From Candidatus Pelagibacterales bacterium (GTDB taxonomy: Bacteria > Pseudomonadota > Alphaproteobacteria > TMED109), in assembly GCA_002720535.1 (NCBI GenBank), contig PBIU01000005.1:48385-85834 (forward strand): a DNA stretch of 37,450 nucleotides. Direction: 5' to 3'. The number at the start of each line of letters is the position of its first letter. Position 1 is the stretch's first letter. This document shows, piece by piece, positions 8,941-35,870 of this stretch. The notes under the pieces were generated by a model that ran no database searches, had not been told where the DNA came from, and saw nothing but the letters and a program-made list of their open reading frames with translations. The position numbers and the translations under genes were made by a program.

Positions 8941-10425
8941 TTGGAAGATTTTAAAAATTTAGTTATTTTTGAAATGGCTAATAACCACCAGGGTAGTTTA
9001 GATCATGCATTAAATATAATTGATGTCTATTCTAAAATTGTAAAAGATAATAATATAAATGCAGCTATTAAATTACAATTTAGAAATATTTCTACATTTA
9101 TTTCTAAAATACAATTAAAAGAAAAAACTAACAAACATATTGATAGATTTCTTGATACTGAATTAACTCAAAAACAATTTTCAATTATATGTAAAAAAAT
9201 AAAAGATTCTGGCATGAAATTGATTATTACGCCATTTGATGAAGTGTCAGTAGATAATGCATTAAAACAAAATGTTGATATTATAAAAATAGCAAGCTGT
9301 AGTGCGGATGATTGGCCATTAATAGAAAAAATAGCTAAAACCAAAAAGTCTGTTATAGCCTCTACCGGAGGTCAAGATATAAAGGCAATCGATAAAATAC
9401 AGAGGTTTTTGGAGCATCGTGAAATTAATTTTGCTTTAATGCATTGTGTTTCTCTCTACCCAGCTTTGCCAAAAGAGGCCAATGTAGGTTTTATTAAAAG
9501 ATTAAAAAGTAGATATCCTAATACGATAATAGGATACTCAGGTCATGAAGCACCTAGTGATCTTATGACAATTGTTTGTGCTATCGGATGTGGAGCGGTT
9601 TTATTTGAAAGGCATATTGGTTTGCCAACGAATCAAATTACTTTGAATAAATATTCTATGGATCCAGAAGAAACAAAAAAATGGATTGATGTAATTAAAA
9701 ACGCACAGAGTATATGTATGGGTGAGACTGATAAAAATATGACCAAAACTGAGTTAACTTCCATTCAAGAATTAGCAAGAGGTACTTTTTGTAAAATTAA
9801 TATTAAAAAAGGACAAAAAATAAATGATAAGGATGTATATTTTGCTTTTCCACTTGAAAATCAGCAATTGAGCTCTGGTAAATTTTTAGCGGGGATTATT
9901 GCTGAAAAAGATTACTTAAAAGATGATGCAATAACTCAAAAGGTTGAAACTAAACAAGCAAATATTATAAGAGAGCATGTTCATTCATACAAAGGAATGT
10001 TTGAAGAAGCAAGTATTGCAGTAGGAAAATATGAAAGTATGGAGTTATCCCATCACTATGGGTTAGAGAATTTAGCAGAAACAGGTGTAATTCTTATTAC
10101 AATCATTAATGATATTTATTGTAAAAAGTTAGTAGGGTTATTAAAAGGTCAAAAACATCCTACTCATAGACATTATAAAAAAGATGAAACTTTTCATGTT
10201 CTTCAAGGAAAAGTTATAGTTGTAAGGAACGATGTTAAACATATTTTAAATAAAGGTGATAAAATAGATATTAGAGCAGGAGATTGGCATTCGTTTGAGT
10301 CAAAAGAAGGTGCTATTTTTGAGGAAGTATCTACAACTAGTATTGTAGGTGATTCTGAATATAAAGATATTAAAATAAATAATTTAGATCCATATGAAAG
10401 AAAAAGTCAAATATACAAATGGTAA
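8941..10425 (+). CDS. NeuB-family ulosonic acid synthase fused to a C-terminal cupin
   Basis: A 494-residue two-part protein. Residues 1-265 form a NeuB/SpsE TIM barrel, which condenses phosphoenolpyruvate with an aldose to a 3-deoxy-ulosonic acid. Visible motifs are EMANNHQG (family EIGxNHxG), KLQ, MHCVSLYPA, GYSGHE and ERHIG. Residues about 270-335 are a SAF domain (ARGTFCKINIKKGQ). Residues about 340-494 are a cupin resembling D-lyxose isomerases, with likely metal ligands His406, His409, His411, Glu416 and His450. The cupin may isomerise the sugar precursor or product (inference). TTG start follows GGAG by 7-8 bases. The promoter and operators lie just upstream. Motif drift from EIGxNH suggests a substrate other than ManNAc. 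Confidence 0.85.
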   Translation: MEDFKNLVIFEMANNHQGSLDHALNIIDVYSKIVKDNNINAAIKLQFRNISTFISKIQLKEKTNKHIDRFLDTELTQKQFSIICKKIKDSGMKLIITPFDEVSVDNALKQNVDIIKIASCSADDWPLIEKIAKTKKSVIASTGGQDIKAIDKIQRFLEHREINFALMHCVSLYPALPKEANVGFIKRLKSRYPNTIIGYSGHEAPSDLMTIVCAIGCGAVLFERHIGLPTNQITLNKYSMDPEETKKWIDVIKNAQSICMGETDKNMTKTELTSIQELARGTFCKINIKKGQKINDKDVYFAFPLENQQLSSGKFLAGIIAEKDYLKDDAITQKVETKQANIIREHVHSYKGMFEEASIAVGKYESMELSHHYGLENLAETGVILITIINDIYCKKLVGLLKGQKHPTHRHYKKDETFHVLQGKVIVVRNDVKHILNKGDKIDIRAGDWHSFESKEGAIFEEVSTTSIVGDSEYKDIKINNLDPYERKSQIYKW

Positions 10426-20153: not shown

Positions 20154-21830
20154 GTGAATAATATGGAAAATATATACTATGGGAAATTTATTCCTGGCAA
20201 TATAGAACAATGGAGAATGTATGAAAATGAAGATAATATAATTTGGCTTGCTGGCGATAATCTAGATAAAAAATTTAATCATTTTATTAAATATATTTCT
20301 AAAAATAAAGTTATTAATAATAATATTCTAAAAAAATTTATTCAAGATATTGATGATCACTTTGGATTATTATGTTTTAATAAAAATTGGATATTTGCCT
20401 GTGTAGATTTTACTCGAAGCTATCCTTTATTTTGGAAAAAAATTGAAGGAAAATTTTTATTTTCCCCGCAAGCAATTAATATTTTAGATAAAAATAAGGA
20501 TTTAATAGATGAAGACCAACTTATTGCATTTAGAATGTCTGGTTATACTATTGATAAGGGAAGTCTGTGGAAAAATATTAGGGGTCTTAATGCAGGAGAA
20601 TTTATTTTTATCGAAAATGAAAAAGATTATATAATACAGAATTATTTTTCTTATAGGCCGTGGAAATATGTTAATAAATCATATTCTGAGTTTAAAATTC
20701 AATTAAAATATGAAATAAATAAAATTATAAAAGATACCATAAGTAAGGCTAATGGAAGAACTATAGTAATTCCATTATCTGCAGGTTTAGATTCACGATT
20801 GATAGCATCAGGTTTAAAACATTTTAATTATACTGACGTAAAATGTTTTACTTATGGATTAAAAGATAATTATGAAAGTAAGGCATCTAAAATTATAGCT
20901 AATAAGTTGGGATATGAATGGAAATTTGTAGAAATAAACCAAAAAAAAGCTAAAAATTTTTATTTAAGCCTAAATTATAAAAATTTTATGAATAATAGCC
21001 AAGATGGATGTGCTACATCTACTATCCAAGGTTTATATGCTATAAATAATCTCTTAAAAAATAATTATATAAATATTGATGATGTAGTTATAAATGGAAA
21101 TTCAGGAGATTTTATTTCAGGAGGCCATATACCCAAAAAAAATATTTTAAAAGGTAAAAATATAACTTTATTGTTTGATGAGGTTTTTGAAGAGCACTTC
21201 GAAAAACATTATTCACTTTGGCAAAATTTAAAAAATAAAAAAAATAAAAATATAATTAAGCGCCTACTTTTAAATCAAATTCAAAATAGTATAGAAGAGA
21301 ATGGTATTTATTTAAATACTCATGGAATTGCTGAAACACTAGAATATCAGAATAGACAAACTAAGTATGTTATTAATGCCCAAAGAATTTATGAATTTTA
21401 TAATTTGAAATGGCAACTTCCTTTATGGAATAAATCATTTATAAAATTTTGGGAGAACGTACCTATAGATTTTAAAAAAAATCAAAAGTTGTATAAAGAT
21501 GCTCTTTTAGAATTAAATATGGGAGGAGTTTGGAATGAAGAATATAATGTTAAAAATTATGTATCACCAAAATGGGTAAGAGTATTAAGAGTATTTTTAA
21601 AAGCTTATTTTTTATTTTATGGAAAAAATAAATGGCACAATTTTGAAAAAAAATACTTAGAATATTGGACAGATAATATTTGTGGTCAGAGCATGCTTCC
21701 CTATAAAAATATTATTAAAAGTAAAAATATAAGTAGGCATTATGTTTCTTGGCTTACAATTTTTTCTGAGGATTTAATGTTAAATTCTAATTGGCAACAT
21801 CAAGATAATTATAAAGATTTAGAGATATGA
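20154..21830 (+). CDS. asparagine-synthase-like protein without the catalytic cysteine
   Basis: A 558-residue protein (GTG 20154 or ATG 20163). The N-terminal 160 residues keep the AsnB glutaminase fold outline (DDHFGLLCF, CVDFTRSYPLFWKK, LFSPQAINIL) but start ENIYYGK, lacking the MCG with nucleophile Cys2 that hydrolyses glutamine. The C-terminal half is a PP-loop ATP pyrophosphatase with PLSAGLDSRLIASGL (family SGGLDSS). It may form an amide or activate a carboxylate with another ammonia source, or have a different role; such proteins recur in glycan clusters without a known function. It overlaps the next glycosyltransferase by 4 bases. Confidence 0.78.
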   Translation: MNNMENIYYGKFIPGNIEQWRMYENEDNIIWLAGDNLDKKFNHFIKYISKNKVINNNILKKFIQDIDDHFGLLCFNKNWIFACVDFTRSYPLFWKKIEGKFLFSPQAINILDKNKDLIDEDQLIAFRMSGYTIDKGSLWKNIRGLNAGEFIFIENEKDYIIQNYFSYRPWKYVNKSYSEFKIQLKYEINKIIKDTISKANGRTIVIPLSAGLDSRLIASGLKHFNYTDVKCFTYGLKDNYESKASKIIANKLGYEWKFVEINQKKAKNFYLSLNYKNFMNNSQDGCATSTIQGLYAINNLLKNNYINIDDVVINGNSGDFISGGHIPKKNILKGKNITLLFDEVFEEHFEKHYSLWQNLKNKKNKNIIKRLLLNQIQNSIEENGIYLNTHGIAETLEYQNRQTKYVINAQRIYEFYNLKWQLPLWNKSFIKFWENVPIDFKKNQKLYKDALLELNMGGVWNEEYNVKNYVSPKWVRVLRVFLKAYFLFYGKNKWHNFEKKYLEYWTDNICGQSMLPYKNIIKSKNISRHYVSWLTIFSEDLMLNSNWQHQDNYKDLEI

Positions 21831-23053
21831 ATATTTTATTTGTTACAAGACTCTATTCTGGCTTTGAAAATAGTTTATACAAAAAGCTATGGCAGCCTGA
21901 AGGAGTTCCCACAATCTATAATCTTTTTAATAGATTAAGTATAAATCACAATTTATCTATTATTTTTACGGCAAAAGATTCTGGATCTACATATTCCTCA
22001 AACTGGAAAGAAACTCGGGATAAAAATATTAAATTAAATAACTTTAAAGCTGATATTACAGTACTCTGTGGAACTAAATATTTTTTTAGTTTTATACCTA
22101 GAAAATTAGCAATGGTTATGAGAGATATAAGACAATTATTCCAAATTTTTATGTATGTAAAAAAAATAAAGCCAGATTTAATTTATTGTGATTCAGCTAA
22201 TGTAGTTATTGCATTTGTTTTAACTAAAATTTTTCCTAAAAAACCAATTGTTGTAAGGGTATTAGGGATATGTTCATTTTGGAGATCAATAACTAATAGT
22301 AAGAGAATTGTTCATAGAATATATAAATATGCATTTAAGGGAAAGTTTGCAGCTGTTATAGGGACTCAAGATGGAAGTGGAATAGAATATTGGTTTAAAG
22401 ATACTTTGCATAAAACTATTCCGAGATATGTTTTACTTAATGGAGTGGATAAAGCTCCTAATATAAGGAAATTAAATAAAAAAATTAAGACTATTTTATT
22501 TGTAGGGAGACTAGAAGAATATAAAGGAATTTTTAATTTTTTAAATGCTATTATTCAAATACTTAAAGAAGGTAAACATGAATTAAATATTATTATTATT
22601 GGTGATGGAACTTTGTATGAAAGAGCTATCGGATTATGTCAAGAATCCGGTTTTTTCAATAGCTTTCAATTCTTAAGAAGTATACCTCATAATCAAGTAT
22701 TAAAACATCATACACAATCTGATATATATGTTTCTGCAAATACTGATGGAAATCTTATTAATACTAACCTTGAAGCAATCAGTGCTAATGCATGTATGAT
22801 TATTCCAAAGCCTCAGTATGATAGATTTATAGATATTGAAACATTTAAATTATTAGCTGATGCGGTTAATTATTATGAGGTAAATAATATTAAGGATTTA
22901 AAGTCTAAAATATTATTTTTGTTACAAAATCCAAATAAAATTAATGAGTATAAAAGAAAACTTTCTTCTTATAAATTAAAATTTATTAGAACTTGGAATG
23001 AAAGAATTAATGAGGAAGAAGATATATTAAAAGCAATTGTTATGAAAAAATAG
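21827..23053 (+). CDS. glycosyltransferase family 4-like
   Basis: A 408-residue GT-B enzyme. The N-terminus MNILFVTRLYSGF opens the first Rossmann half. The second half begins IKTILFVGRLEEYKGIFNFLNAI, standard for GT4, and continues IIGDGTLYERA and a signature-like ANTDGNLINTNLEAISANACMIIPK (about residues 303-327), where Glu (NLEA) stands for the EAxxxG donor motif. Its first ATG overlaps the preceding stop (ATGA). Donor and acceptor are unknown; it acts in assembling the same glycan. Confidence 0.85.
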   Translation: MNILFVTRLYSGFENSLYKKLWQPEGVPTIYNLFNRLSINHNLSIIFTAKDSGSTYSSNWKETRDKNIKLNNFKADITVLCGTKYFFSFIPRKLAMVMRDIRQLFQIFMYVKKIKPDLIYCDSANVVIAFVLTKIFPKKPIVVRVLGICSFWRSITNSKRIVHRIYKYAFKGKFAAVIGTQDGSGIEYWFKDTLHKTIPRYVLLNGVDKAPNIRKLNKKIKTILFVGRLEEYKGIFNFLNAIIQILKEGKHELNIIIIGDGTLYERAIGLCQESGFFNSFQFLRSIPHNQVLKHHTQSDIYVSANTDGNLINTNLEAISANACMIIPKPQYDRFIDIETFKLLADAVNYYEVNNIKDLKSKILFLLQNPNKINEYKRKLSSYKLKFIRTWNERINEEEDILKAIVMKK

Positions 23054-23066
23054 TGAGTAAAATATT

Positions 23067-24896
23067 ATGTGCGGTATATTTGGGTTAATTGGAAATAATA
23101 AAAATAGTTTGGCTGATATTCACAAGCTAGCTAAGTATTCAAAAAGAAGAGGTTCCGACTCTTCTGGAGTATTGCTATTTCAAGATAAGTATTTAGTAGA
23201 GAGGGCTGATTTTAATATATCAAAACTTGTAAAAAAATTAGATATCAATAATCCTGAATTATTTCTTGGAATAGGAAGATTAATTACTAATGATAATGAA
23301 ATGAATCAACCCTTTTTAAGTGATGATATATGTGTTTTCCATAATGGGATTGTAGTAAATGATCATGAAATTTTTGCAGAAGAAAAAATTAAGCGCTTAA
23401 GTTCTCTAGATACAGAAGTTTTCCAAGCGCTGATAAAAAAATATATAAAGAATAACAATTTAAAAGAATTTAAAGAAATATTTTTATCTAAATGTAAGGG
23501 CACATTTTCAGTAGCTATAGCTTTACCAAAATTAGGAAGATTATTACTATTTTCTAATCATGGAAGCTTATATTTAGGGTATAAGGAAAATCTAATAATT
23601 TTTTCTTCAGAAAAACATCATTTATTAAGTCTTCAATGTAAAAATATAATTAACTTAAACAAAAATATTAAGATTATAGATATTCCTAAAGTTAATAATG
23701 AAAAAATTTTATTGAAAGATCATAAAATTAAAAGAAGATTACTTGTTTCTAAAAGAAAATTTTCACATTATAAAGAAAAACTTCTAGATAAAACTAATCC
23801 TCAAGTTCTAAGGTGCAGAAAGTGTGTACTTCCACATACTTTTCCATTTATAAGCTTTAATCAGGAAGGAATATGTAACTATTGCACAAATCATAAAACT
23901 AGGATTGCTTCAAAACCTAAACAGGACTTAGAAAAAATATTAGAGAATTATAGAAAAAAAAGTGGTCCAGATTGTATCGTTCCTTTTTCAGGTGGAAGGG
24001 ATAGTTCATATGCTCTTCATTTAATTGTAAATGAGTTGAATATGAATCCTATTACTTATACATATGATTGGGGTATGACATCGGATATTGGGCGACGAAA
24101 TATTAGTAGAGTATGCTCTCAGCTAGGAGTTGAAAATATTATTGTCTCTGCTGATATAAACAAAAAAAGAAATAATATAAGAAAGAATATTAATGCTTGG
24201 CTAAAAAATCCCCATTTAGGAATGGTAAATATATTTACTGCCGGGGACAAACATTTTTATAAATATATTGAAGATATAAAAAAAGAAACCAACATTAGTC
24301 TTAATTTATGGGGATATAGCCCATTTGAGGTTACACACTTTAAAGCAGGGTTTTTAGGGTATCCTCCAGATTTTCAAACAGCAAGGACCTATACTTATGG
24401 TGCATTAAAACAATTAAGATATCAATTCTTAAGATTAAAAGCTATGTTTAAAAACCCCGCTTATTTTAACCTTTCTTTGTTAGATTCTTTATCAGGGGAA
24501 TATTATCGTAGTTTCAAAAAGAAAGAAGATTATTATTATATATTTGATTATCTTCCATGGGATGAAAAAGTAGTAGATAAAACATTAATCAATGAATATA
24601 AATGGGAGTTAGCTAGAGATACTTCTACTACTTGGAGAATAGGAGATGGTACAGCTGGATTTTATAATTATATATATTATACTATAGCTGGTTTCACGGA
24701 GCATGATACATTTAGAAGTAACCAAGTTAGAGATGGAGTAATATCAAGGGAAGAAGCATTATCATTAGTTGAAATAGAAAATAGGCCTAGATTTGATAAT
24801 ATTGCAGAATACCTAGAAATGTTAGATTTAGATTTTGAAACTGTAATAAATAGAATTAACTCAGTACCAAGGTTATGGTATCAAAATCCTAAATAA
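23067..24896 (+). CDS. glutamine amidotransferase (class II) fused to a WbpG/PseA-type N-acetyl-sugar amidotransferase
   Basis: A 609-residue fusion. Residues 1 to about 205 are an Ntn-type glutaminase starting MCGIFG, with nucleophile Cys2 and FHNGIVVN. Residues about 245-609 match N-acetyl-sugar amidotransferases (WbpG, PseA, LegG): two CxxC pairs (Cys250/253, Cys270/273) and the PP-loop SGGRDSS (308-314), then TYDWGMTSDIGRRN and LWGYSPFE. These enzymes turn an acetamido into an acetamidino group, using ATP and ammonia. WbpG normally takes ammonia from a separate HisH-like subunit; here the ammonia source appears to be fused. The pseudaminic genes follow directly, so an acetamidino-pseudaminate precursor is a likely product (inference). 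Confidence 0.85.
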   Translation: MCGIFGLIGNNKNSLADIHKLAKYSKRRGSDSSGVLLFQDKYLVERADFNISKLVKKLDINNPELFLGIGRLITNDNEMNQPFLSDDICVFHNGIVVNDHEIFAEEKIKRLSSLDTEVFQALIKKYIKNNNLKEFKEIFLSKCKGTFSVAIALPKLGRLLLFSNHGSLYLGYKENLIIFSSEKHHLLSLQCKNIINLNKNIKIIDIPKVNNEKILLKDHKIKRRLLVSKRKFSHYKEKLLDKTNPQVLRCRKCVLPHTFPFISFNQEGICNYCTNHKTRIASKPKQDLEKILENYRKKSGPDCIVPFSGGRDSSYALHLIVNELNMNPITYTYDWGMTSDIGRRNISRVCSQLGVENIIVSADINKKRNNIRKNINAWLKNPHLGMVNIFTAGDKHFYKYIEDIKKETNISLNLWGYSPFEVTHFKAGFLGYPPDFQTARTYTYGALKQLRYQFLRLKAMFKNPAYFNLSLLDSLSGEYYRSFKKKEDYYYIFDYLPWDEKVVDKTLINEYKWELARDTSTTWRIGDGTAGFYNYIYYTIAGFTEHDTFRSNQVRDGVISREEALSLVEIENRPRFDNIAEYLEMLDLDFETVINRINSVPRLWYQNPK

Positions 24897-24932: not shown

Positions 24933-25934
24933 TTGGATTTTAATAATAAAAATATATTAATTACCGGAGGAACTGGATCTTTTGGAACTAAATGCGTTGA
25001 AACTCTTTTAAGAGATTATAAACCTAAAAGACTAGTAATCTTTAGTAGAGATGAATTAAAACAATATGAAATGAGTCAAGTCTATTCGGAAGAAAAATTT
25101 TCATGTTTAAGATATTTTTTGGGCGATGTCAGGGATGGGGAAAGAGTAAAAAGAGCATGCGCTAACATTGATATAATTATTCATGCAGCTGCAATGAAAC
25201 ATGTTACTGCATCAGAATATAATCCCACAGAATGTATAGAAACTAATATAAATGGAGCTAAAAATATTATAGATGCATCAATTGAAAATAATATAAAGAA
25301 AGTTATTGCTCTTTCTACAGATAAAGCCGCCAGTCCAATAAATCTGTATGGTGCGACTAAACTGTGTTCAGATAAATTATTTATTGCTGCAAACAATTTG
25401 TCAGGTAAACATAAAACTCGTTTTTCAGTAGTAAGATATGGAAATGTCATAAATTCTAGAGGAAGTGTTATTCCACATTTTAATAAGTTATTGAAAGGTG
25501 GTAAAAAAAAACTGCCATTAACTAATATTAATATGACTCGGTTTGTAATAACCCTGGACCAGGGAGTTCAATTTGTACTAAAGGCATTTACAAATATGAG
25601 CGGAGGTGAAATATTTATTCCTAAAATACCTAGTATGAATATTATAGACTTAGTCACTTGTATGGCAGGAGAAGGGCAGTATAAAGAAGTTGGTATAAGG
25701 CCAGGTGAAAAGTTACATGAGGTTATGATTCCTAGAGAAGAATCTTTGAATTGTATTGAAATGGATGATTATTATATAATCCAACCAATGTTTTCATGGT
25801 GGAACACTGAGCAGTTAAAATTAACAATAGGTAATAATGGAAAAAAGGTTGCCAAATCTTTTGAGTATTCAAGTGACTCAAATACTAATTTCTTAAGTTT
25901 AGATGATATAAAAAGAATTTTAGGTCAAAAATAA
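24933..25934 (+). CDS. pseB: UDP-N-acetylglucosamine 4,6-dehydratase (inverting), PseB
   Basis: A 333-residue extended SDR that starts pseudaminic acid synthesis by converting UDP-GlcNAc to UDP-2-acetamido-2,6-dideoxy-L-arabino-hexos-4-ulose. The NAD motif is TGGTGSFGTK (11-20). The catalytic residues are Asp130 and Lys131 in STDKAASP and Tyr139/Lys143 in YGATK, arranged as in PseB/FlaA1. VRYGNVINSRGSVIPHF is also typical, as is the length. TTG start; AGGGA precedes it. It begins the pse block 37 bases after the amidotransferase fusion. Confidence 0.93.
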   Translation: MDFNNKNILITGGTGSFGTKCVETLLRDYKPKRLVIFSRDELKQYEMSQVYSEEKFSCLRYFLGDVRDGERVKRACANIDIIIHAAAMKHVTASEYNPTECIETNINGAKNIIDASIENNIKKVIALSTDKAASPINLYGATKLCSDKLFIAANNLSGKHKTRFSVVRYGNVINSRGSVIPHFNKLLKGGKKKLPLTNINMTRFVITLDQGVQFVLKAFTNMSGGEIFIPKIPSMNIIDLVTCMAGEGQYKEVGIRPGEKLHEVMIPREESLNCIEMDDYYIIQPMFSWWNTEQLKLTIGNNGKKVAKSFEYSSDSNTNFLSLDDIKRILGQK

Positions 25935-25967: not shown

Positions 25968-26948
25968 ATGATGAGATTAGCCATAAGAGTATCTTCTGCG
26001 AGCAGTTCAGGCAGAGGACATTTTGAAAGGTGTTTAGCTATAAGGAGCTATATACCAGAAGGTGTATTTTGGTTTGTAGATTATGAATCAGACTATATAA
26101 AAAATAAAATTTTTAAATCTGATAAAATATTTTATGAAAATGGGAAAAATAAATTTAATATATTAAAAAATAATCTGGAAAAATATTCTATTAATTGTAT
26201 TTTAATTGATAGCTATGCGATTAATAGTAAAGATATTCATAACATAAGTAATAATATACCAATAGTCGTTTTTGATGACCAAAATACTAATACAATAGCT
26301 GACATATTAATATGTCCTCATCCTTTAAATTATAATGATATTCAAGGTAAAAAATATCTTATTGGCCCAAAATATGCACCAATTTCTAATAAATTCAGTT
26401 TTTTTGAAAAAGAAAATAGTAAAGATAAAAAGATTTTAATTTCTTTTGGTGCTTATGATAGTAATGGAATTACATTAAATGTTATTAAGTCAGTTAAAAA
26501 GTTTATTGAAGATAGTAAATATAATTTAAATATAATAATTATTTTAGGAAAGGAATCTCCAATTATTACAAAAGTTCAACATGAAATTCAAAATTTATCT
26601 AATTATAAATTAATACTAGATTGCGATAAAATGGAAAAAATATATAAAAATTGTGATATTGCTATTGGTTCACCAGGTCTATCTTATTTAGAAAGAATGG
26701 CCTCAGGGACACCGAGTATATTGATATCTCAGAATAAATTGCATGATATCTTGATTAATAAATGGGTAGATTTGGGTTGTGGAATAAAAGCTGAAAATTC
26801 TGCTAATTCAATAGAATATACATTAAAAAAATTGATTTTAGATGATAACCTTCACCAGGAATTAATACTTAAGGGTAAAAATACAGTAGATGGCAAAGGT
26901 GCGGAAAGAATTGCAAAAGAAATTATTAATATGGTTAGTATAAAATGA
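25968..26948 (+). CDS. pseG: UDP-2,4-diacetamido-trideoxy-altropyranose hydrolase, PseG-like
   Basis: A 326-residue GT-B-fold hydrolase that releases UDP to give 2,4-diacetamido-2,4,6-trideoxy-L-altrose. The N-terminus RVSSASSSGRGHFERCLAI corresponds to the PseG R-DAS-xIGxGHxxRC motif, with the catalytic His18. VVFDDQ, IGPKYAPI (family GPxYALL), ISFGAYDS (family SFGGxDP) and IGSPGLSYLERMASGTPSI follow in the family order. The drift in GGxDP and the loss of the first Asp in the DAS motif are noted but do not change the call. It overlaps pseC by 4 bases. Start is ATG 25968 or the adjacent 25971. Confidence 0.85.
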   Translation: MMRLAIRVSSASSSGRGHFERCLAIRSYIPEGVFWFVDYESDYIKNKIFKSDKIFYENGKNKFNILKNNLEKYSINCILIDSYAINSKDIHNISNNIPIVVFDDQNTNTIADILICPHPLNYNDIQGKKYLIGPKYAPISNKFSFFEKENSKDKKILISFGAYDSNGITLNVIKSVKKFIEDSKYNLNIIIILGKESPIITKVQHEIQNLSNYKLILDCDKMEKIYKNCDIAIGSPGLSYLERMASGTPSILISQNKLHDILINKWVDLGCGIKAENSANSIEYTLKKLILDDNLHQELILKGKNTVDGKGAERIAKEIINMVSIK

Positions 26949-28123
26949 TTAAATATCCTTATTCAAAACCTGAGGTAACTAAGTCAGATATTAATGAGGT
27001 AAAAAAGGTATTATTAGGTGGGTATTTGAGCCAAGGAGAAAAAATTCATAAATTTGAATATGAGTTATCAAGATATTTTGATAGTAAAAATGCTATAGTT
27101 TGTAATTCGGGAACAGCAGCATTACATTTAATTTATATGGCTCTAGGAATTGGACCTAAAGCTGGACTCTTAACAACACCTATAACTTTCTTGGCTACTG
27201 CTAATGCAGCAAAAATGTGTAATGCATCAGTATATTTCGCAGATGTAGATCATATATCAGGCCTCTTGACTGCAGATACAATAGAAAAATCTTTAAAAAA
27301 ATATAAAAATAAAATTAAAGTAATTACATTGGTACATTTAGGAGGTAAAATATGCGATTTAGAATCAATATCTAAAGTAGCAAAAAAATATAATTGCTTA
27401 ATTGTAGAAGATGCAAGTCACGCAGCAGGAGCTGAATATTATGATAAAGGTGGAGTTAGTAGTAAGGTAGGAAGTAATAAGTATAGTATTGCAACGGCGT
27501 TTAGTTTTAATGCTATCAAACATGTTGCTATGGGCGAAGGGGGTTGTGTATCAACTAATAATAAAATAATAGCTGATAAAATTAAAAATTTAAGAAGTCA
27601 TGGTATGTTAAGGCAAAAAAATAAATTGCTTTATAAACCTAAAGAACATGCACCTTGGTATTATGAAATGCAAGAGTTAGGTTGGAATTATAGAGCTGAT
27701 GAGACTTCATGTGCATTAGGATTAAGCCAACTTAAAAGATTGCAAAGAGGAATATTTAAAAGGAGAAAAATAGCAAGATATTATTTTAATGAATTAAAAG
27801 ATATAGATTGTATTATTCTACCAGCTAATATTAAAAGTATTAATCAGAGTGTTTGGCATTTATATCCACTACTTATAGATTTTAAAAAAATAGGTATTAG
27901 TCGTAGTCATATGATGAAACAATTATTGAAATATGGAATTCAAACACAAGTTCACTATATACCTTTATTTATGCAACCATATTATAGAAATAGAAATTTT
28001 TTCTTATTTAAAGAATCCATAAAATATTATGATTCTACATTAAGCATCCCTTTATATGTGCAGCTTAATAAAAAAGATATTATTTATATAAGTTCAAAAA
28101 TTAAGAGTGTAATAAATCATTAA
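26945..28123 (+). CDS. pseC: UDP-4-keto-sugar 4-aminotransferase, PseC-like
   Basis: A 392-residue PLP enzyme of the DegT/DnrJ/EryC1 family that adds the 4-amino group to the PseB product using glutamate. The N-terminus begins YPYSKPEVTKSDI, then SQGEKIHKFEYELSRYF and CNSGTAALHL. EDASHAAGAEY holds the PLP-ring Asp region, and the Schiff-base lysine is Lys192 in FNAIKHVAMGEGG (family FHPVKxITTGEGG). TQVHYIPLFMQPYY is the C-terminal signature. Length and order fit PseC. It overlaps pseG by 4 bases, so both are translated together. Confidence 0.92.
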   Translation: MIKYPYSKPEVTKSDINEVKKVLLGGYLSQGEKIHKFEYELSRYFDSKNAIVCNSGTAALHLIYMALGIGPKAGLLTTPITFLATANAAKMCNASVYFADVDHISGLLTADTIEKSLKKYKNKIKVITLVHLGGKICDLESISKVAKKYNCLIVEDASHAAGAEYYDKGGVSSKVGSNKYSIATAFSFNAIKHVAMGEGGCVSTNNKIIADKIKNLRSHGMLRQKNKLLYKPKEHAPWYYEMQELGWNYRADETSCALGLSQLKRLQRGIFKRRKIARYYFNELKDIDCIILPANIKSINQSVWHLYPLLIDFKKIGISRSHMMKQLLKYGIQTQVHYIPLFMQPYYRNRNFFLFKESIKYYDSTLSIPLYVQLNKKDIIYISSKIKSVINH

Positions 28124-29921
28124 TCCTAGCGTAGTATTTTGTGATTCATATGAGGCTTTAAATACGCTTTATTCTAGAGGTTTGTCTGAGACTACTAAAA
28201 TAATTACAAAATCCCCACGAATATTAAGCTCTAATAATAATTATGTTCAAGATTTAGAAAAAGATGTAAATAATAAATATAATGAAATTTATAGAAATAA
28301 ATCAAAAGAATATACTTATGAAATTTATAATAGTTTAAAAAAAGAAAAAAATATTTCTGAATATAGCTTGTTATGTTCACAAAAATTTTTGAAATTTTAT
28401 AATCAAATATATTTTGCAAGTTTATTTAGCGATAGTTTTCTAGGAAGAGAATTTTGGGTAATTAAGCCCATTTGTAAAGATAAAAAAATAAATTATGCTA
28501 TTTCTTCTGATATTTATAATATTTTAGAGCTTCACCCAAATTGTAAAATCAAGGAAATTCCAGTCAATTCAACTAATGAAAGATCCGCTCGTGGGGATAG
28601 TAAAGTAAGTCTTTATTCACGCTTACGTATCGTAGGGTATAAAGGCATATTTTGGAATTTTTTGAATTTAATATCTTTTTTATTTAAAAGTAATAAAGTT
28701 AAAATAGCTATAATAAGTAGTAACGAATTAGTGAGAGATATTAGTTTTTATCTTTTATGGAGAAAGAATCTTAATATATTTTACTTTAAGAAATTTTTTA
28801 ATTTTAAAAATAAAATAGTGATTATTAAAAATGAAAATATAATTAAAAATATTAGTGTTATTGTAAATAAAATTTTTCTAAAAGCATTGAGGGACGTACC
28901 ATCAGAAACTATTAGAGAATTATTAATAGCTAAATGGAACATAGAATTAATAGATATTATTAATTCATATAGAACATATAAGCATAATATTAAAAATATT
29001 TTAGATAAAAAAAAGATAGATTTTATTTTAATTGGTTATTTAGATATGCTTAAAGGGCTTGCTCTTCATAATATATGTCAAAATAAAAGTATACCCTTAA
29101 TATCATGCCAACATGGTATTACAAGAGAGATAATATTTGATCCTAACATGAGATCAATATTTTTTGAAACGAGTTTTAGCGACTATTTATTTTGTTATAA
29201 TGATATGTCTAAGAAAGTTACGCAGTCTGCAATGTATTATAATCAAAATAATATTTATAATATCGGTCTTCCTTCTGATTATAGAAACTTTATTTCTAAA
29301 AAAAATAAGAGTAAAGAAATTTGTTATATTTCTACAATTTTATTATCCGGCGGTATTCCAAATTTTATAGCACCTGAAAAGGATATTGAATTAATAAATT
29401 GGGAATTAAAACTGATAAATAAAGTTTTTAAAAAAACTATAAAGACTATAGATTATAAACCTTATCCTGCTATTAGATATGCAGAAAATGACATTAGTAT
29501 TCAGGCTGTTAAGGAAGATAATAATCTAAAATTAGTGGGTACTCATATAGATTTAAGATATATAATTTCAAATTATGGCCTATTAATAACTTCTGGTGCT
29601 ACAAGTACTTTAGGATGGTGTGTTCAATCTAACATTCCTTTAATAATTATAAATAGAAAAGGCTCGCTTTCAATAAAAGAAAGCGTAATTCATGATTTTA
29701 AAAAAGCTTTTTTTATTTTTGATGATTCAGATGAAAATTGGACTAAAAAATTAAAATCATTTTTAGAAAAAGAATATTCAGATATATTAAAGTTATGGAG
29801 AAATAAATTAGATACTAGACCTGCTATTATAAAAAAGTATTTTGGTGATGTTAACTTAAATGCAGGCAAGAATGGTGCAAATATTATTAATAATATAATT
29901 AGAGAACAAAAATTTGGATAA
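28119..29921 (+). CDS. probable surface-glycan transferase (GT-B-like), family not assigned
   Basis: About 600 residues; the frame is open from 28116, after a TAA at 28113. The first standard start codon is TTG 28182, but the 20 codons before it read as protein (NPSVVFCDSYEALNTLYSRG) and continue smoothly, so translation probably begins near the pseC stop at ATT 28119 or ATC 28116. The C-terminal 300 residues show GT-B-like features: SCQHGITREI, IYNIGLPSDYR, ISTILLSGGIPNF and ITSGATSTLGWCVQSNIPLIIIN, as in capsule and LIC12162-like transferases. I cannot name the substrate. It lies inside the pse block, so it may transfer the pseudaminic residue (inference). It overlaps the next gene by 8 bases. 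Confidence 0.65.
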   Translation: MNPSVVFCDSYEALNTLYSRGLSETTKIITKSPRILSSNNNYVQDLEKDVNNKYNEIYRNKSKEYTYEIYNSLKKEKNISEYSLLCSQKFLKFYNQIYFASLFSDSFLGREFWVIKPICKDKKINYAISSDIYNILELHPNCKIKEIPVNSTNERSARGDSKVSLYSRLRIVGYKGIFWNFLNLISFLFKSNKVKIAIISSNELVRDISFYLLWRKNLNIFYFKKFFNFKNKIVIIKNENIIKNISVIVNKIFLKALRDVPSETIRELLIAKWNIELIDIINSYRTYKHNIKNILDKKKIDFILIGYLDMLKGLALHNICQNKSIPLISCQHGITREIIFDPNMRSIFFETSFSDYLFCYNDMSKKVTQSAMYYNQNNIYNIGLPSDYRNFISKKNKSKEICYISTILLSGGIPNFIAPEKDIELINWELKLINKVFKKTIKTIDYKPYPAIRYAENDISIQAVKEDNNLKLVGTHIDLRYIISNYGLLITSGATSTLGWCVQSNIPLIIINRKGSLSIKESVIHDFKKAFFIFDDSDENWTKKLKSFLEKEYSDILKLWRNKLDTRPAIIKKYFGDVNLNAGKNGANIINNIIREQKFG

Positions 29922-30495
29922 TATTAAAGCTTTAAAAGAAAGTGATATTTATATAAGGCCGTTATTAAGCGAAGATATAACAGTTAGATATCTATCATGG
30001 TTTAAGAACGATATTGTAACTAAGTTTTTAGATGCAAAAAATTTAAAAAAAAATGAAGTTATAAAATACTTAAATTATGGGAAGGAATCAGGTAGTTACT
30101 ATATTTATGCTATATGTCTAAAATCAAATGATATGCATATAGGAAATATTAAAATAGGTCCTATAAAAAGGAAAGATGGAATATCAGATTTAGTTACTGT
30201 TATTGGAGATGATTATTATTGGGGTAAGGGTTTTGCCAAATACGCAATCATTTCTGCAATAGATATTGGTTTTAATCAAGGAGGCATAAGAAAATTTAGT
30301 GCAAGTATTAATTCTTTAAATATTTCATCTTTAAAAGCTTACACATCGGCAGGAATGAAAAAAGAGGCTATTATTCAGAATTATTTTTATAATAATGTAG
30401 AAAATGAAATTATTATTTCGGATAAAATATATGTTGGGTGTGAAAATAAAAAATTTAATATGGATCTTTTGCAGAGTTGGGAGCCTTTTTCCTAG
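29914..30495 (+). CDS. pseH: GNAT N-acetyltransferase, probable PseH
   Basis: A 193-residue GNAT-fold acyltransferase with a TTG start overlapping the preceding gene by 8 bases. It starts IYIRPLLSEDITVRYLSWFKND, like RimJ/RimL- and PseH-type enzymes. The acetyl-CoA loop region is GDDYYWGKGFAKYAI (family GxGxA), and the C-terminal SASINSLNISSLKAYTSAGMKKE matches the N-x-xS-xAYxxxGF motif. In the pseudaminic pathway PseH acetylates the 4-amino group made by PseC, and no other acetyltransferase is in the block, so PseH is the best call. Confidence 0.78.
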   Translation: MDNIKALKESDIYIRPLLSEDITVRYLSWFKNDIVTKFLDAKNLKKNEVIKYLNYGKESGSYYIYAICLKSNDMHIGNIKIGPIKRKDGISDLVTVIGDDYYWGKGFAKYAIISAIDIGFNQGGIRKFSASINSLNISSLKAYTSAGMKKEAIIQNYFYNNVENEIIISDKIYVGCENKKFNMDLLQSWEPFS

Positions 30496-30519
30496 AGGTT
30501 TTAGGGTATATATCTAATC

Positions 30520-31539
30520 ATGAAAACTAATTTTAAAATATTTAATAAGAATATTTATCAAGACTCGCCTTGTTTAATAATTGCAGAAATTGGAATTAAT
30601 CACCTTGGGGAAGTAAAACTATGTGAAGAAATGATATTATCTGCGTTAGATGCGGGAGCAGATTGTGTTAAATTACAAACTGTAAATGTGGAAGAAAGTT
30701 ATCATCCAAATACGGAATCATATAGAGTTTTTAAAAATGCGGAACTAAATATTGAAGAACTTAAATACCTTATTAAAATAACTGAAAAAAATAATGGTTT
30801 TTTATTTTCTACACCGGGTGATATATCTTCCTTAAATTTATTGAGTCTTTTAAATATACAAGCATATAAAATTTCTTCAGGTCTTTTAGGTAATTTACCA
30901 TTAATACAAGAAATTTCTAAAACTAATATGCCTATAATTTTATCTACTGGCATGGCTTCGGAAATTGACATTGATAGAGCTTTAAGTCAAATCAAGAATT
31001 ACGAAAAAACAAATATAGCCCTATTACACTGTGTATCAATTTATCCAGCTAAAAATGAGTTTTTAAATTTACAGTTTATAAGACATCTATCAGAAAAATA
31101 TAATGTTATATCTGGTTATTCAGATCATAGTATAGGCCCTCTAGCCTGCATTTCTGCAGTTGCAAGCGGAGCAAAAATAATTGAAAAACATTTTACTATA
31201 GATAATAATATTACAGGTGCTGATAATAGTTTATCAATGAATCCAAAAGAATTTAAATCTATGTGTAAAAATATTAGAGAGACTGAAGAAATGTTGTATG
31301 GTTCAACATTTAAACCTCATCCTTTGGAAGAAAGTTTAAAAAAATCTAGATATAGAAAAATAGTTGCTGGAGTAAATATTAATAAAGGGGATGAAATAAA
31401 TTTATCTAATGTAAACTTTATGAGAATAGACGATGATTTAGATTCAATTGATGCGTCTGAATGGAATTTATTTTCCGGTAAAAAAAGTAAAAAAAATATT
31501 CAAAAATTTAGTCCTATTACTTTAAAATGTATTTTGTAA
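30520..31539 (+). CDS. pseI: pseudaminic acid synthase, PseI (NeuB family)
   Basis: A 339-residue NeuB-type synthase that condenses PEP with 2,4-diacetamido-trideoxy-altrose to pseudaminate. The motifs are IIAEIGINHLGEV, ADCVKLQT, FSTPGD, KISSGLLGNLPLI, LSTGMAS, LLHCVSIYPA, GYSDHSIGPLA and IEKHFTIDNNITGADNSLSMNP. The SAF domain at about 280-335 (RYRKIVAGVNINKGDEI) closes it. Unlike the NeuB-like protein at 8941 it has no cupin and retains the standard motifs. Length and position at the end of the pse block support PseI over NeuB or LegI. Confidence 0.9.
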   Translation: MKTNFKIFNKNIYQDSPCLIIAEIGINHLGEVKLCEEMILSALDAGADCVKLQTVNVEESYHPNTESYRVFKNAELNIEELKYLIKITEKNNGFLFSTPGDISSLNLLSLLNIQAYKISSGLLGNLPLIQEISKTNMPIILSTGMASEIDIDRALSQIKNYEKTNIALLHCVSIYPAKNEFLNLQFIRHLSEKYNVISGYSDHSIGPLACISAVASGAKIIEKHFTIDNNITGADNSLSMNPKEFKSMCKNIRETEEMLYGSTFKPHPLEESLKKSRYRKIVAGVNINKGDEINLSNVNFMRIDDDLDSIDASEWNLFSGKKSKKNIQKFSPITLKCIL

Positions 31540-31603: not shown

Positions 31604-32656
31604 ATGTTTAAACATAGAGTTTTAATAACAGCAGTCTCAGGTGCTTTGGGACCACAAAATATTAATTTTATGAAGAACTCAATTAAAGGAGATGTATGGG
31701 TTTTAGGTGTAGATGTAAAACATAATTATGTTGCAGAAAATAATGCTAATGAATTTGCATTAGTTCCCCTAGGAAATACTAAAAAATATATTTCTAGAAT
31801 TCAGGAATTAATTAACCTTCACAAGATTACAATGGTACTTCCCTGTTCAGATGAGGAAGCTATAAACTTATCAAGAAATAGAGAAGTTATAGAGAGTAAA
31901 AGTACATTATTAGCAACAGCAAAAATATCGACTATTAAAACTATATCTAATAAAATACTTACTTATAATTTTTTTAAAAAAGTTGGTATAACAGTGCCAG
32001 ATTTTAGAGTATGCAATAATGAACTAGAATTAATTAAACATGCCTCAAATTTTTATCAAGAAAGGGGCTCATTTGTTATAAAAGATGCTATTGCTAGGGG
32101 TAATAGAGGAACAATATTGGTAGATAAAACTATTAAAGGTAGGCAAGATTATATGGGCTCCAGAGAATTACATATGGGTTGGGAATATTTTAATGATAAT
32201 TTTAAGAAGTTTGTGGATCAAACTTTTCCGAAATTAATTACTGAGCGCCTTTATGAGCCGTGTTATGATATAGATGTATTATCAAAGGATGGAAAGTTAA
32301 TAAATGCTATTGCTCGGGAAAGAATAAACCCTGCAGGTGTTCCTTATCATGGAAATATTATGAGAAATAATAATAAATTAACTAATTTAGCAAAAAAAGT
32401 GTCTGAGTATCTAGAATTAACTTGGTTATATGACATTGATATAATGACTAGAAAAGATGGAACACCTGTATTATTAGAAGTAAATCCCAGGCCAAGTGGT
32501 AGCTCAGCCGCTTCTATGCAGTGCGGAGTTCCCCTTTATAAAAACTTATTAGAGTTATTTGAGAGAGATGATTTTCAAGAAAAAAATTATTTTGTCGATG
32601 GAACAATTATTAGTCCTAGTTTTATATGTAATGTTATTAAACCGAAAATAAAGTAA
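31604..32656 (+). CDS. ATP-grasp ligase (CarB-like), substrate unknown
   Basis: A 350-residue ATP-grasp protein that would activate a carboxylate as acyl phosphate and join it to an amine. The N-terminal half is a pre-ATP-grasp Rossmann domain (RVLITAVSGALGPQN, WVLGVDVK, MVLPCSDEEAI). The ATP-binding part contains SFVIKDAIARGNRGT (lysine and glycine-rich loop), a C-terminal DIDIMTRKDGTPVLLEVNPRPSGSSA with the metal-binding Glu and Asn, and LITERLYEPCYDIDVLSKDG. It lies 64 bases after pseI and 1 base before the LeuA-like gene. Such ligases may attach an amino acid or acyl group to a sugar (inference). Confidence 0.85.
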   Translation: MFKHRVLITAVSGALGPQNINFMKNSIKGDVWVLGVDVKHNYVAENNANEFALVPLGNTKKYISRIQELINLHKITMVLPCSDEEAINLSRNREVIESKSTLLATAKISTIKTISNKILTYNFFKKVGITVPDFRVCNNELELIKHASNFYQERGSFVIKDAIARGNRGTILVDKTIKGRQDYMGSRELHMGWEYFNDNFKKFVDQTFPKLITERLYEPCYDIDVLSKDGKLINAIARERINPAGVPYHGNIMRNNNKLTNLAKKVSEYLELTWLYDIDIMTRKDGTPVLLEVNPRPSGSSAASMQCGVPLYKNLLELFERDDFQEKNYFVDGTIISPSFICNVIKPKIK

Positions 32657-32657
32657 T

Positions 32658-33812
32658 ATGAAGAATATTAAATTTCAAGATACCTCTTTGAGAGATGGAG
32701 AACAAACTCCAGGTGTTGCATATAACCTCCAAGACAAAATTAGAATTACAGAACAACTAATAAAATTAAATGTTGATAGTATTGAGGTTGGTTTTCCTGC
32801 TGCTTCAAAAGATGAAGCAGCAATTGTAAAAGAAATTTCATTAAAATATAAAAATAATAAAAATATATTTTGCGTTTTTGCAAGGGCTATTAAGGAAGAT
32901 ATAGATATTGCTTATGAAAGTATTAAAGAAGCAAAATTCAAAAGATTACAAATTGTTGCTCCTGCATCTGACATACACATTAAATATTCTACCAGTAAAG
33001 ATAAAAAATCTATACTTAAAGATTTAGAGGCAGCTATTAAATATGCGTCTTCAAAATTTCAAGATATTCAATTTACCGCACAAGACGCTCCTCGAGCAGA
33101 TTTAAAATTTTTAAAAAAACTAATAGACACAGCTATTAAAAATGGAGCAAGAATTGTTTGCTTGCCAGATACTTCTGGTTTTTGCTTGCCAGAAGAATAT
33201 GGAAAATTAATTTCTTCAATAAAAAAACATATAAGCTTAAATGATGTTACAATATCAGCTCATTGCCATAATGATTTAGGGTTAGCAGCAATAAATACTA
33301 TTGCTGCAATAAAAGCAGGTGCTGATCAAGTAGAATGTACTATAAATGGAATAGGAGAAAGAGCTGGTAATACTCCTATGGAAGAAATTGCCGTTATAAT
33401 AAATTTAAAATATAAGGAATTATATACTAATGCTTTAAACTTAAAATATTTTAAAGAAGTTAGTAATATAATGTCTGATATAACAGGTTTACAAGTCCAT
33501 GTTAATAAACCTTTGTTTGGAAAGAATGCATTTCTACATTCTTCCGGCATGCATCAAAAGGCTATTATAAATAATAAAGAAACTTTTGAAGTTATTAATG
33601 CAGAAGATTATGGAATAAAAGGGGGTAAACTATCAATAGGAAAATTATCTGGTAAAGCTGGTGTTGTTAACTACTTAAAACAGATGAATATTATTTTAGA
33701 TGATAAAGAATTAAAAAAAGTTATGGAATTAATAAAAAAAGAAGCAATAAATATTAAAGAGTTTAATAAAGATAAAATTATTAGAATACTTAAAAAACAA
33801 AATATTAATTGA
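32658..33812 (+). CDS. 2-isopropylmalate/homocitrate synthase-like condensing enzyme
   Basis: A 384-residue DRE-TIM metallolyase that joins acetyl-CoA to a 2-oxo acid. The motifs are QDTSLRDGEQTPGV (7-20), VEVGFPAAS-type IEVGFPAAS, FTAQDAPRADLKF, the metal ligands His202 and His204 in AHCHNDLGLA, NGIGERAGNTPMEE (230-243) and SSGMHQ. It stops after the catalytic and connector regions, with no LeuA regulatory domain, like NifV/homocitrate or FrbC-type enzymes. Finding it inside a glycan island, one base after an ATP-grasp ligase and directly followed by an SpsF-HemL fusion, suggests it makes a special organic acid for sugar decoration rather than leucine (inference). Confidence 0.85.
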   Translation: MKNIKFQDTSLRDGEQTPGVAYNLQDKIRITEQLIKLNVDSIEVGFPAASKDEAAIVKEISLKYKNNKNIFCVFARAIKEDIDIAYESIKEAKFKRLQIVAPASDIHIKYSTSKDKKSILKDLEAAIKYASSKFQDIQFTAQDAPRADLKFLKKLIDTAIKNGARIVCLPDTSGFCLPEEYGKLISSIKKHISLNDVTISAHCHNDLGLAAINTIAAIKAGADQVECTINGIGERAGNTPMEEIAVIINLKYKELYTNALNLKYFKEVSNIMSDITGLQVHVNKPLFGKNAFLHSSGMHQKAIINNKETFEVINAEDYGIKGGKLSIGKLSGKAGVVNYLKQMNIILDDKELKKVMELIKKEAINIKEFNKDKIIRILKKQNIN

Positions 33813-35870
33813 ATGAAAAATAATAAAAAAATTATAGCTATTATTCAAGCTAGAGTTAATTCTACGAGGTTACCCAATAAGGTATTATTAAAACTTAATA
33901 AAGTCCCGACAATAATAAGAATGATTGATAGACTTAAGATATCTAATCTTATCGACGAAATTTGGGTAGCCACAGGTACGTCTAAAATTAATGATAAGCT
34001 TGTAAGAATTTTAGATTCATCAAAAAATATTAATGTATTTAGAGGAGATGATCTTGATGTATTATCAAGATATATTGAGGTAGCTAAAAAAACTAAAGCA
34101 AATATTATTATAAGATTAACCGGGGATTGTCCGCTAATAGACTCTGAAATAGTTGATAATACTGTTAAATTATTGATTGATAAAAAAGCTGATTATGCTT
34201 CTAATATAATTAAAAGAACATACCCAGATGGATTAGATGTTGAGGCATTTACATATAAGACTTTATTGGAAACAGATAAAAATGCACCTAAAGGTTTTTG
34301 TCGTGAGCATGTTACAACCTATATGCATGGTTTATACAAAAGCAAATATCCAAAGGGTGATTTTAAAAGAGTATCATTAGAGAATTCTGTTGATTTTAGT
34401 AATTTACGTTGGACATTAGATGAAAAAAAAGATTTTGATTTTTTAAACTCTATTTTTTCAAATTTATCTTATAATGCTTCCTGGTTAGAAATTATTTCAT
34501 TTTTATTAGATAATCCCTTATTACAAATGAATAATAGTATAATAGATTCTAACGAAGGGGCAGTAGATAAAACATTATCAAGTTATAGTAGATATAATAA
34601 AAGTAACAAATTTTTTAAAAAAGCAATAAAATATGTTCCGTTAGCAAGTCAAACATTTTCTAAAAGTTATATTCAGTGGCCAAAGGGGGAAGCACCATTA
34701 TTTATCGAACGAGCATACGGTTCCCAAGTAGTGGATATAGATAAAAACCATTATATAGATTATATATTAGGCTTATTGCCGATAACTCTGGGGTATTGTG
34801 ATAGAGATGTGGATAATGCTGTTATCTCTCAAATTATGAAAGGAAGTATATTTTCTCTACCTTCTAAATTAGAAACTATTCTTGCTGAAAAGTTAGTTAA
34901 TTTAATTCCTTCTGCAGAAATGGTAAGATTTGGAAAAAATGGATCTGATGCGACAACTGCGGCTATAAGATTAGCAAGGGCATATACAAATAGAGATATG
35001 ATAGCTGTTTCTGGTTATCACGGCTGGCATGATTGGTATATAGGTAGTTCCACAAGAGATTTAGGAGTGCCTAATACAGTTAAGAAACTTACACATAAGT
35101 TTATTTTTAATGATGCAGAAAGTTTAAAATATTTGTTTAAGAAGCACCCTAATAAATTTGCTGCTGTTATATTGGAACCAGCAGGATTAGTAGAAACAAA
35201 AGTTAGTTTCCTTAAAGAAATAAAAAAGATATGTAAAGAAAATAAAACATTATTAATATTTGACGAAATAATAAGTGGTTTCAGAATAAATATGGGTGGA
35301 GCACAATTAGAATATGGAGTTAAGCCAGATTTATCGTGTTTTGGCAAAGGTATGGCAAATGGATATCCGTTATCAGCATTAGTGGGATCAAAAAAAATTA
35401 TGAAATTAATGGAAGAAATTTTCTTTTCTTCGACTTTTGGAGGGGATACTATCTCACTCGCAGCATCCATTGCAACAATTGAAAAATTACAAAAAAATCA
35501 AGTAGTAAAAAAAACTAGATTATACGGTAAAAAGTTAATACTGGAATTAAATAAAGTTTGTAAAAATGAGAATATAGATTCTTTTATAAAAATATCTGAT
35601 ATAGATTGGTGGCCTCAGATAATAATTGAAGATCCTCCAATAGAAAAATTCTTATTAATAAGTTTATTAAGACAAGAGCTATTAAAGACTGGAATTATGG
35701 TTAATTCAACCTTTAATTTGTGTTATGCACATACTGTTCCAGAAATAATGGAAGCTACTGTTAAAAGATTTAAGCAGGCAGTTACAAACCTAAAGGTATT
35801 TATAGAATCTCCAAATCCAAAAAAATATTTAAAAGGTAATTTAGTTCAAACTACTTTTAAGGTTAGGTAA
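33813..35870 (+). CDS. fusion: SpsF-like cytidylyltransferase plus class III (GSA-like) aminotransferase
   Basis: A 685-residue two-domain protein beginning right at the LeuA-like stop (no gap). Residues 1 to about 240 match SpsF-type nucleotidyltransferases (IAIIQARVNSTRLPNKVL, DEIWVATGTS, VFRGDDLDVLSRYIE, RLTGDCPLID). Residues about 265-685 match glutamate-1-semialdehyde aminomutase and related class III PLP enzymes: YVPLASQTFSK, GLLPITLGYCDRDV, MVRFGKNGSDATTAAIRLARA, SGYHGWHDW, LIFDEIISGF and the PLP lysine Lys512 in FGKGMANGYP. It may aminate a keto sugar or acid and activate it with CTP (inference). The missing pseF function could reside in the first half. Confidence 0.88.
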   Translation: MKNNKKIIAIIQARVNSTRLPNKVLLKLNKVPTIIRMIDRLKISNLIDEIWVATGTSKINDKLVRILDSSKNINVFRGDDLDVLSRYIEVAKKTKANIIIRLTGDCPLIDSEIVDNTVKLLIDKKADYASNIIKRTYPDGLDVEAFTYKTLLETDKNAPKGFCREHVTTYMHGLYKSKYPKGDFKRVSLENSVDFSNLRWTLDEKKDFDFLNSIFSNLSYNASWLEIISFLLDNPLLQMNNSIIDSNEGAVDKTLSSYSRYNKSNKFFKKAIKYVPLASQTFSKSYIQWPKGEAPLFIERAYGSQVVDIDKNHYIDYILGLLPITLGYCDRDVDNAVISQIMKGSIFSLPSKLETILAEKLVNLIPSAEMVRFGKNGSDATTAAIRLARAYTNRDMIAVSGYHGWHDWYIGSSTRDLGVPNTVKKLTHKFIFNDAESLKYLFKKHPNKFAAVILEPAGLVETKVSFLKEIKKICKENKTLLIFDEIISGFRINMGGAQLEYGVKPDLSCFGKGMANGYPLSALVGSKKIMKLMEEIFFSSTFGGDTISLAASIATIEKLQKNQVVKKTRLYGKKLILELNKVCKNENIDSFIKISDIDWWPQIIIEDPPIEKFLLISLLRQELLKTGIMVNSTFNLCYAHTVPEIMEATVKRFKQAVTNLKVFIESPNPKKYLKGNLVQTTFKVR

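Follow-up and report, generated by a model that had tools for sequence, protein, structure and literature searches.

A candidate single-chain glutamine-dependent sugar amidotransferase with a GlmS-type glutaminase and an NASAT-like domain

How enzymes of the WbpG type acquire ammonia and hand it over is poorly understood, and the solved structure of an N-acetyl-sugar amidotransferase (NASAT; 8wex) contains no ammonia donor. The alphaproteobacterial DNA analysed here, a stretch of 37,450 nucleotides (the window), carries a gene that appears to encode both a glutaminase and an NASAT-like domain (Table 1). This raises the question whether the product is a sugar amidotransferase supplying its own ammonia, and which sugar it would modify. 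We think it likely that the fusion is a single-chain glutamine-dependent amidotransferase of a surface-glycan sugar, in which a Cys2 glutaminase would feed NASAT-like acetamidino synthesis. The NASATs (WbpG, WbuX, PseA) are represented by the NCBIfam model TIGR03573, whose curated cut-off is 203.2 bits.

Table 1. Features of the window
Feature	Position	Strand	Remarks
Second NeuB-family-like protein	8941-10425		494-aa frame
Asparagine-synthase-like protein	20154..21830	+	558 aa; PF00733; lacks N-terminal nucleophile Cys
GT4-type glycosyltransferase	21827..23053	+	408 aa; Glycos_transf_1; ends 13 bases ahead of fusion
Fusion gene	23067-24896	+	ATG start; 609 aa; begins MCGIFG; no internal stops
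GlmS-like Ntn (class II) glutaminase, N-terminal	23067..23786	+	residues ~1-240; predicted nucleophile Cys2
NASAT-like (WbuX/WbpG-related) PP-loop domain, C-terminal	23814..24896	+	residues 250-609
pseB, UDP-GlcNAc 4,6-dehydratase (inverting)	24933..25934	+	TIGR03589, 513 bits (cut-off 408)
Pse-like nonulosonate genes, whole run	25968..31539	+	Pfam/NCBIfam
pseG-like	25968-26948	+	below NCBIfam cut-off
pseC-like	26945-28123	+	below NCBIfam cut-off
579-aa protein	28182-29921	+	no Pfam, NCBIfam or PDB sequence match
GNAT/pseH-like	29914-30495	+	
NeuB/PseI family synthase	30520-31539	+	below NCBIfam cut-off
ATP-grasp ligase and isopropylmalate/homocitrate-synthase-like protein	31604-33812		within Pse-like operon
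Cytidylyltransferase (CTP_transf_3, SpsF-like) fused to class III aminotransferase	33813-35870		aminotransferase of glutamate-1-semialdehyde type

Domain composition of the fusion protein

The N-terminal part of the protein was recognised by the Pfam models GATase_7 (1.5e-11, above the model's own cut-off) and GATase_6, and residues 2-238 matched the NCBIfam glmS model at 7e-17. A short linker separates this part from the tetracysteine/PP-loop part, of which residues 250-593 matched TIGR03573 (WbuX) at 2.6e-41. The latter match scored 142 bits, below the cut-off. By this score the C-terminal domain, although NASAT-related, is outside the formal limits of the TIGR03573 family, as is the whole fusion. 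Among PDB sequences the fusion matched 8wex, an N-acetyl sugar amidotransferase from Legionella, and 1xff, the glutaminase domain of GlmS, and a profile of the fused proteins matched the same Legionella NASAT and residues 1-248 of E.coli GlmS. A preliminary description of this DNA had placed an Ntn glutaminase (Cys2) and a CxxC...CxxC/PP-loop amidotransferase in one chain. Independent detection of both domains by Pfam, NCBIfam and PDB searches bears this out and refines it in two points: the glutaminase is of the GlmS-like kind, and the C-terminal domain scores below the family cut-off.

In an alignment of eight divergent fused proteins the glutaminase positions C2, R28, R71, T74, N93, G94 and D115 were invariant (for comparison, the glutamine site of GlmS comprises C1, R26, R73, T76, N98, G99 and D123). 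The fusion thus has the N-terminal Cys and the conserved glutamine-site residues of an Ntn glutamine amidotransferase. Equally invariant were the zinc-type tetracysteine C250/C253/C270/C273 and, following it, the PP-loop SGGRDS at 308-313. Thirteen residues of the C-terminal domain, including the four Cys and SGG.DS, were common to at least 90% of 37 stand-alone NASATs. The fused proteins also contain five residues (W378, L379, P382, L384 and G428) that align with gaps in almost all stand-alone NASATs.

Relatives of the protein carry the public names 'hypothetical protein', 'glucosamine 6-phosphate synthetase' and '7-cyano-7-deazaguanine synthase', as would be the case if it were a GlmS or AsnB of the ordinary kind under a wrong name, or two genes joined by accidental read-through. 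This explanation, to which we assign a negligible probability, was refuted by the model scores and by the independent full-length copies. The glmS match reached 61 bits against a cut-off of 418 and covered only model positions 1-255 of 607, without the SIS part; the asn_synth_AEB model gave 49 bits against 267, short of an AsnB assignment, and the Pfam search found no match to PF00733 (Asn_synthase) in the fusion. Independent assemblies contain the full-length chain with identities of 37-76%, and a further copy (89%) is interrupted by a contig end.

The AlphaFold model of the fusion had a pLDDT of 76 and a pTM of 0.77. With Foldseek its C-terminal half matched 8wex and its N-terminal half the GlmS glutaminase (1xff). 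The best whole-chain matches were to AsnB with an rmsd above 20 Å, so the relative placing of the two domains is unproven. As far as the model goes, the AsnB matches reflect the domain order and not a proven domain arrangement. The predicted model gave no sign of an ammonia channel.

The asparagine synthetase-like domain order is what one would expect if the fusion, like the AsnB-like sugar amidotransferases, converted a uronic acid to its carboxamide and did not form an amidine on an N-acetyl group. The distance of its sequence from TIGR03573 members fits this as well, and the cluster of one fused relative (G357) encodes a nucleotide-sugar dehydrogenase of the kind that makes uronates. However, the match of the PP-loop domain is to NASAT, with none to PF00733, the NASAT tetracysteine is kept, and there is no uronate-forming dehydrogenase among the annotated genes of the window. 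We therefore regard carboxamide formation as improbable and prefer amidine formation on an N-acetyl sugar.

Distribution and phylogeny of the fused proteins

At least nine further bacterial genomes or plasmids were found to encode full-length fused relatives. Since these are independent assemblies, a chance or assembly artefact is ruled out. Identity to the window protein was 76% in G005, 61% in G010, 57% in G013 and G653, 53% in G082, 52% in G357 and on two Agrobacterium plasmids, and 37-38% on one Solidesulfovibrio plasmid; the contig-interrupted copy belongs to G007. A match in G751 (246-605, with one stop) was considered as a stand-alone form and rejected, as the protein is a full fusion of 626 aa. 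A single-protein scan of genome contigs returned near relatives only in G007 and G005. The genome sampling was centred within Pseudomonadota. At E <= 1e-30 the fusion was present in 4 of the 385 alphaproteobacterial genomes sampled; in the Pseudomonadota sample it occurred in 3 of 399 genomes, against 41 of 399 with an NASAT over the cut-off, and in the window's own family in 5 of 28. No match was found in phages.

When a tree was built from 47 NASAT domains, all ten that come from fused proteins formed a single group with a support of 100/100. The fused and stand-alone labels required one change on this tree, whereas shuffled labels needed 9.2. The neighbours of the group were seven stand-alone NASATs, but the program warned of a long-branch meeting, which makes this join unsure. 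The stem of the fused clade was long (1.56 changes per column) and its TIGR03573 scores, 118-144 bits, were all under the cut-off. Together these suggest that the substrate, and even the chemistry of the bond formed, may differ from those of the stand-alone enzymes. Judged by sequence, the fused proteins are a small, mis-annotated clade. In the open-access literature no paper was found on a GlmS-type glutaminase fused to an NASAT. Because the clade lies below annotation cut-offs and is wrongly named in public records, acetamidino sugars are probably under-predicted.

Gene neighbourhood and the probable substrate

The conserved neighbour of the fusion was a GT4 glycosyltransferase, of two types in the two subclades. 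In the window's subclade it always directly preceded the fusion, with identities to the window's GT4 of 73-74% in G005 and G007 and of 50-53% in G010, G013 and G653. The asparagine-synthase-like gene was linked to this pair in G005, G007, G013 and G653. In the second subclade (G082, G357 and Agrobacterium) a WcaI-like GT4, 48-53% identical among themselves, directly followed the fusion. GT4 enzymes generally take NDP-sugars, not CMP-sugars. Their conservation beside the fusion therefore points to a sugar nucleotide or a lipid-linked sugar as substrate. The clusters of the second subclade also encoded a PglC-like initiating transferase and a DegT aminotransferase (3/3) and a NeuD/PglD-type acetyltransferase (2/3), a composition that would suit a bacillosamine-type diacetamido sugar.

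The preliminary description had the fusion directly ahead of pseB, which was confirmed by an interval of 36 bases and a PseB score well over the cut-off, and took pseudaminate or its precursor as the substrate. The fusion would then be a self-sufficient PseA, converting CMP-pseudaminate or a Pse precursor to its acetamidino form. Besides its place within a run of Pse-like genes, this reading is favoured by the presence of a NeuB/PseI-family synthase in all six genomes of subclade A, often in the gene island of the fusion, and of PseB above cut-off in five of the six. An AnsB-type protein of Tannerella forsythia (Tanf_01265, 605 aa) has moreover been proposed, with no test, to form an acetamidino group on Pse (PMC6120980). 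However, among the loci compared pseB adjoined the fusion in the window only, whereas the GT4 is conserved, and a GT4 would as a rule take an NDP-sugar. G357, listed as 100% complete, carries the fusion and gave neither a NeuB/PseI match nor a PseB above cut-off, indicating that the fused clade does not require nonulosonates. No annotated Pse synthase lies near the fusion in the Agrobacterium and Solidesulfovibrio plasmid clusters, and G010 has a separate NASAT with HisH and HisF2 in a legionaminate-like cluster. A pseudaminate-related substrate is therefore unsupported for the clade, and as a general account of the fusion we consider it unlikely. In the window's organism, given the synthase in all six subclade-A genomes, pseudaminate or a precursor is a possible substrate, not a property of the family.

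A wider proposal is that the fused proteins constitute a separate family, in which a GlmS-type glutaminase was wired to an NASAT-like domain independently of HisH/HisF2 and which makes amidines on a non-nonulosonate sugar with a dedicated GT4. We hold this tentatively, at somewhat less than even chances. If true, positively charged amidine surface sugars would exist in marine alphaproteobacteria, a group in which such sugars have yet to be sought.

Several other genes of the window deserve mention. The NeuB/PseI synthase scored better as NeuB, and a second NeuB-family-like protein, encoded about 13 kb upstream of the fusion, was 31% identical to residues 71-300 of this synthase. The 579-aa protein has distant homologues (28-29%) in the glycan clusters of G005 and G013 and is possibly a nonulosonate transferase. 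The ATP-grasp ligase and the isopropylmalate/homocitrate-synthase-like protein possibly make an unusual acyl group and attach it to the nonulosonate. Of the cytidylyltransferase-aminotransferase fusion, a full-length copy with 61% identity was found in G005 (L049:11927-13981).

Ammonia supply and comparison with known systems

The earlier statement that WbpG-type enzymes usually rely on a separate HisH-like donor agrees with the finding of HisH or HisF2 within about 1.5 kb in 21 of 30 stand-alone NASAT loci. When wider stretches were searched, two more loci (G066 and G398) had HisH/HisF2 within a few kb, and in G197 HisH was about 6 kb from the NASAT. Several of the partnerless NASATs (in G095, G353, G062 and on one Alistipes plasmid) adjoin NeuB-family genes. 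The accompanying remark that PseA lacks a clear partner is open to doubt, as HisF, HisH and PseA of Campylobacter have the consecutive locus tags Cj1314c-Cj1316c (PMC12102941).

In the window's genome, a draft of 89% completeness, the single TIGR03573 match was the fusion itself, and neither a stand-alone NASAT nor a HisF2 above cut-off was found. All matches to the HisF2 model were below cut-off; two of them lie side by side and resemble ordinary histidine genes. Self-supplied ammonia is therefore the best reading, and the self-sufficiency proposed earlier is plausible on the gene content. In G013, G357 and G751, too, the fusion was the only NASAT-type protein. G005, G007, G010, G653 and G082 encode stand-alone NASATs besides the fusion, showing that there it is not their replacement but has a job of its own.

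Another type of fusion, HisF2-NASAT in one open frame with a similar linker, was detected in two genomes, at L083:505-3018 (G068:C9) and at L081:5506-7599 (G353:C17, the second NASAT of G353). A HisH match (321-920) is located upstream on the same strand of L083. From the existence of this second type it appears that the ammonia supply was probably hard-wired to NASAT more than once. Long frames in L038 and L045 were rejected as further fusions, their upstream parts resembling no recognised protein. A separate observation is an NRPS-like open frame of 1873 codons (L058:8136-13754; G028:C119), in which condensation and adenylation parts were recognised by eye and an NASAT-like CxxC/SGGKDS domain lies inserted near residue 916.

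In the mechanism that we propose, removal of Met would allow the GlmS-type domain to hydrolyse glutamine via Cys2 and release ammonia. The NASAT-like PP-loop domain would use ATP to activate the N-acetyl group of the sugar, and addition of the ammonia would convert it to an acetamidino (amidine) group. The fusion would stand in for HisH/HisF2, the separate proteins from which most stand-alone NASATs obtain ammonia. Its substrate would probably be a diacetamido sugar, linked to a nucleotide or a lipid, that the adjacent GT4 also handles. The activity, the passage of ammonia between the domains, the amidine chemistry and the substrate are all predicted properties. With a one-chain version that has its own glutaminase, the whole reaction could be assayed, and the structure solved, with one purified protein.

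Compared with known systems, the fusion shares with WbpG/WbuX-type NASATs (LpNASAT, 8wex) the tetracysteine, the SGGxDS PP-loop and the surface-glycan cluster setting. It differs from them in the N-terminal glutaminase, the SGGRDS form of the loop, W378/L379/P382/L384, the sub-cut-off score and its separate clade. The accessible text of the NASAT structure paper (PMC10607449) covers the tetracysteine and the PP-loop as well as WbpG/WbuX, with no mention of a donor domain. Tanf_01265 resembles the fusion in length, AnsB-type annotation and proposed reaction, a comparison made by description only, and may be a relative. GlmS and AsnB, like the fusion, have an N-terminal Cys2 glutaminase joined to a synthase domain, which in AsnB is also of the PP-loop type; the second domain is, however, SIS in GlmS and PF00733 Asn_synthase in AsnB, whereas that of the fusion is NASAT-like with a zinc-type tetracysteine. 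The WbpG-HisH-HisF2 three-gene system has the same job as is predicted for the fusion, the use of glutamine-derived ammonia for an acetamidino sugar. There the donor is a separate class I (HisH, triad-type) glutaminase, whereas in the fusion it is GlmS-like, of the Ntn type and in the same chain. We infer that the fused clade consists of NASAT-like enzymes with a built-in glutaminase, which would work like WbpG together with its ammonia donor.
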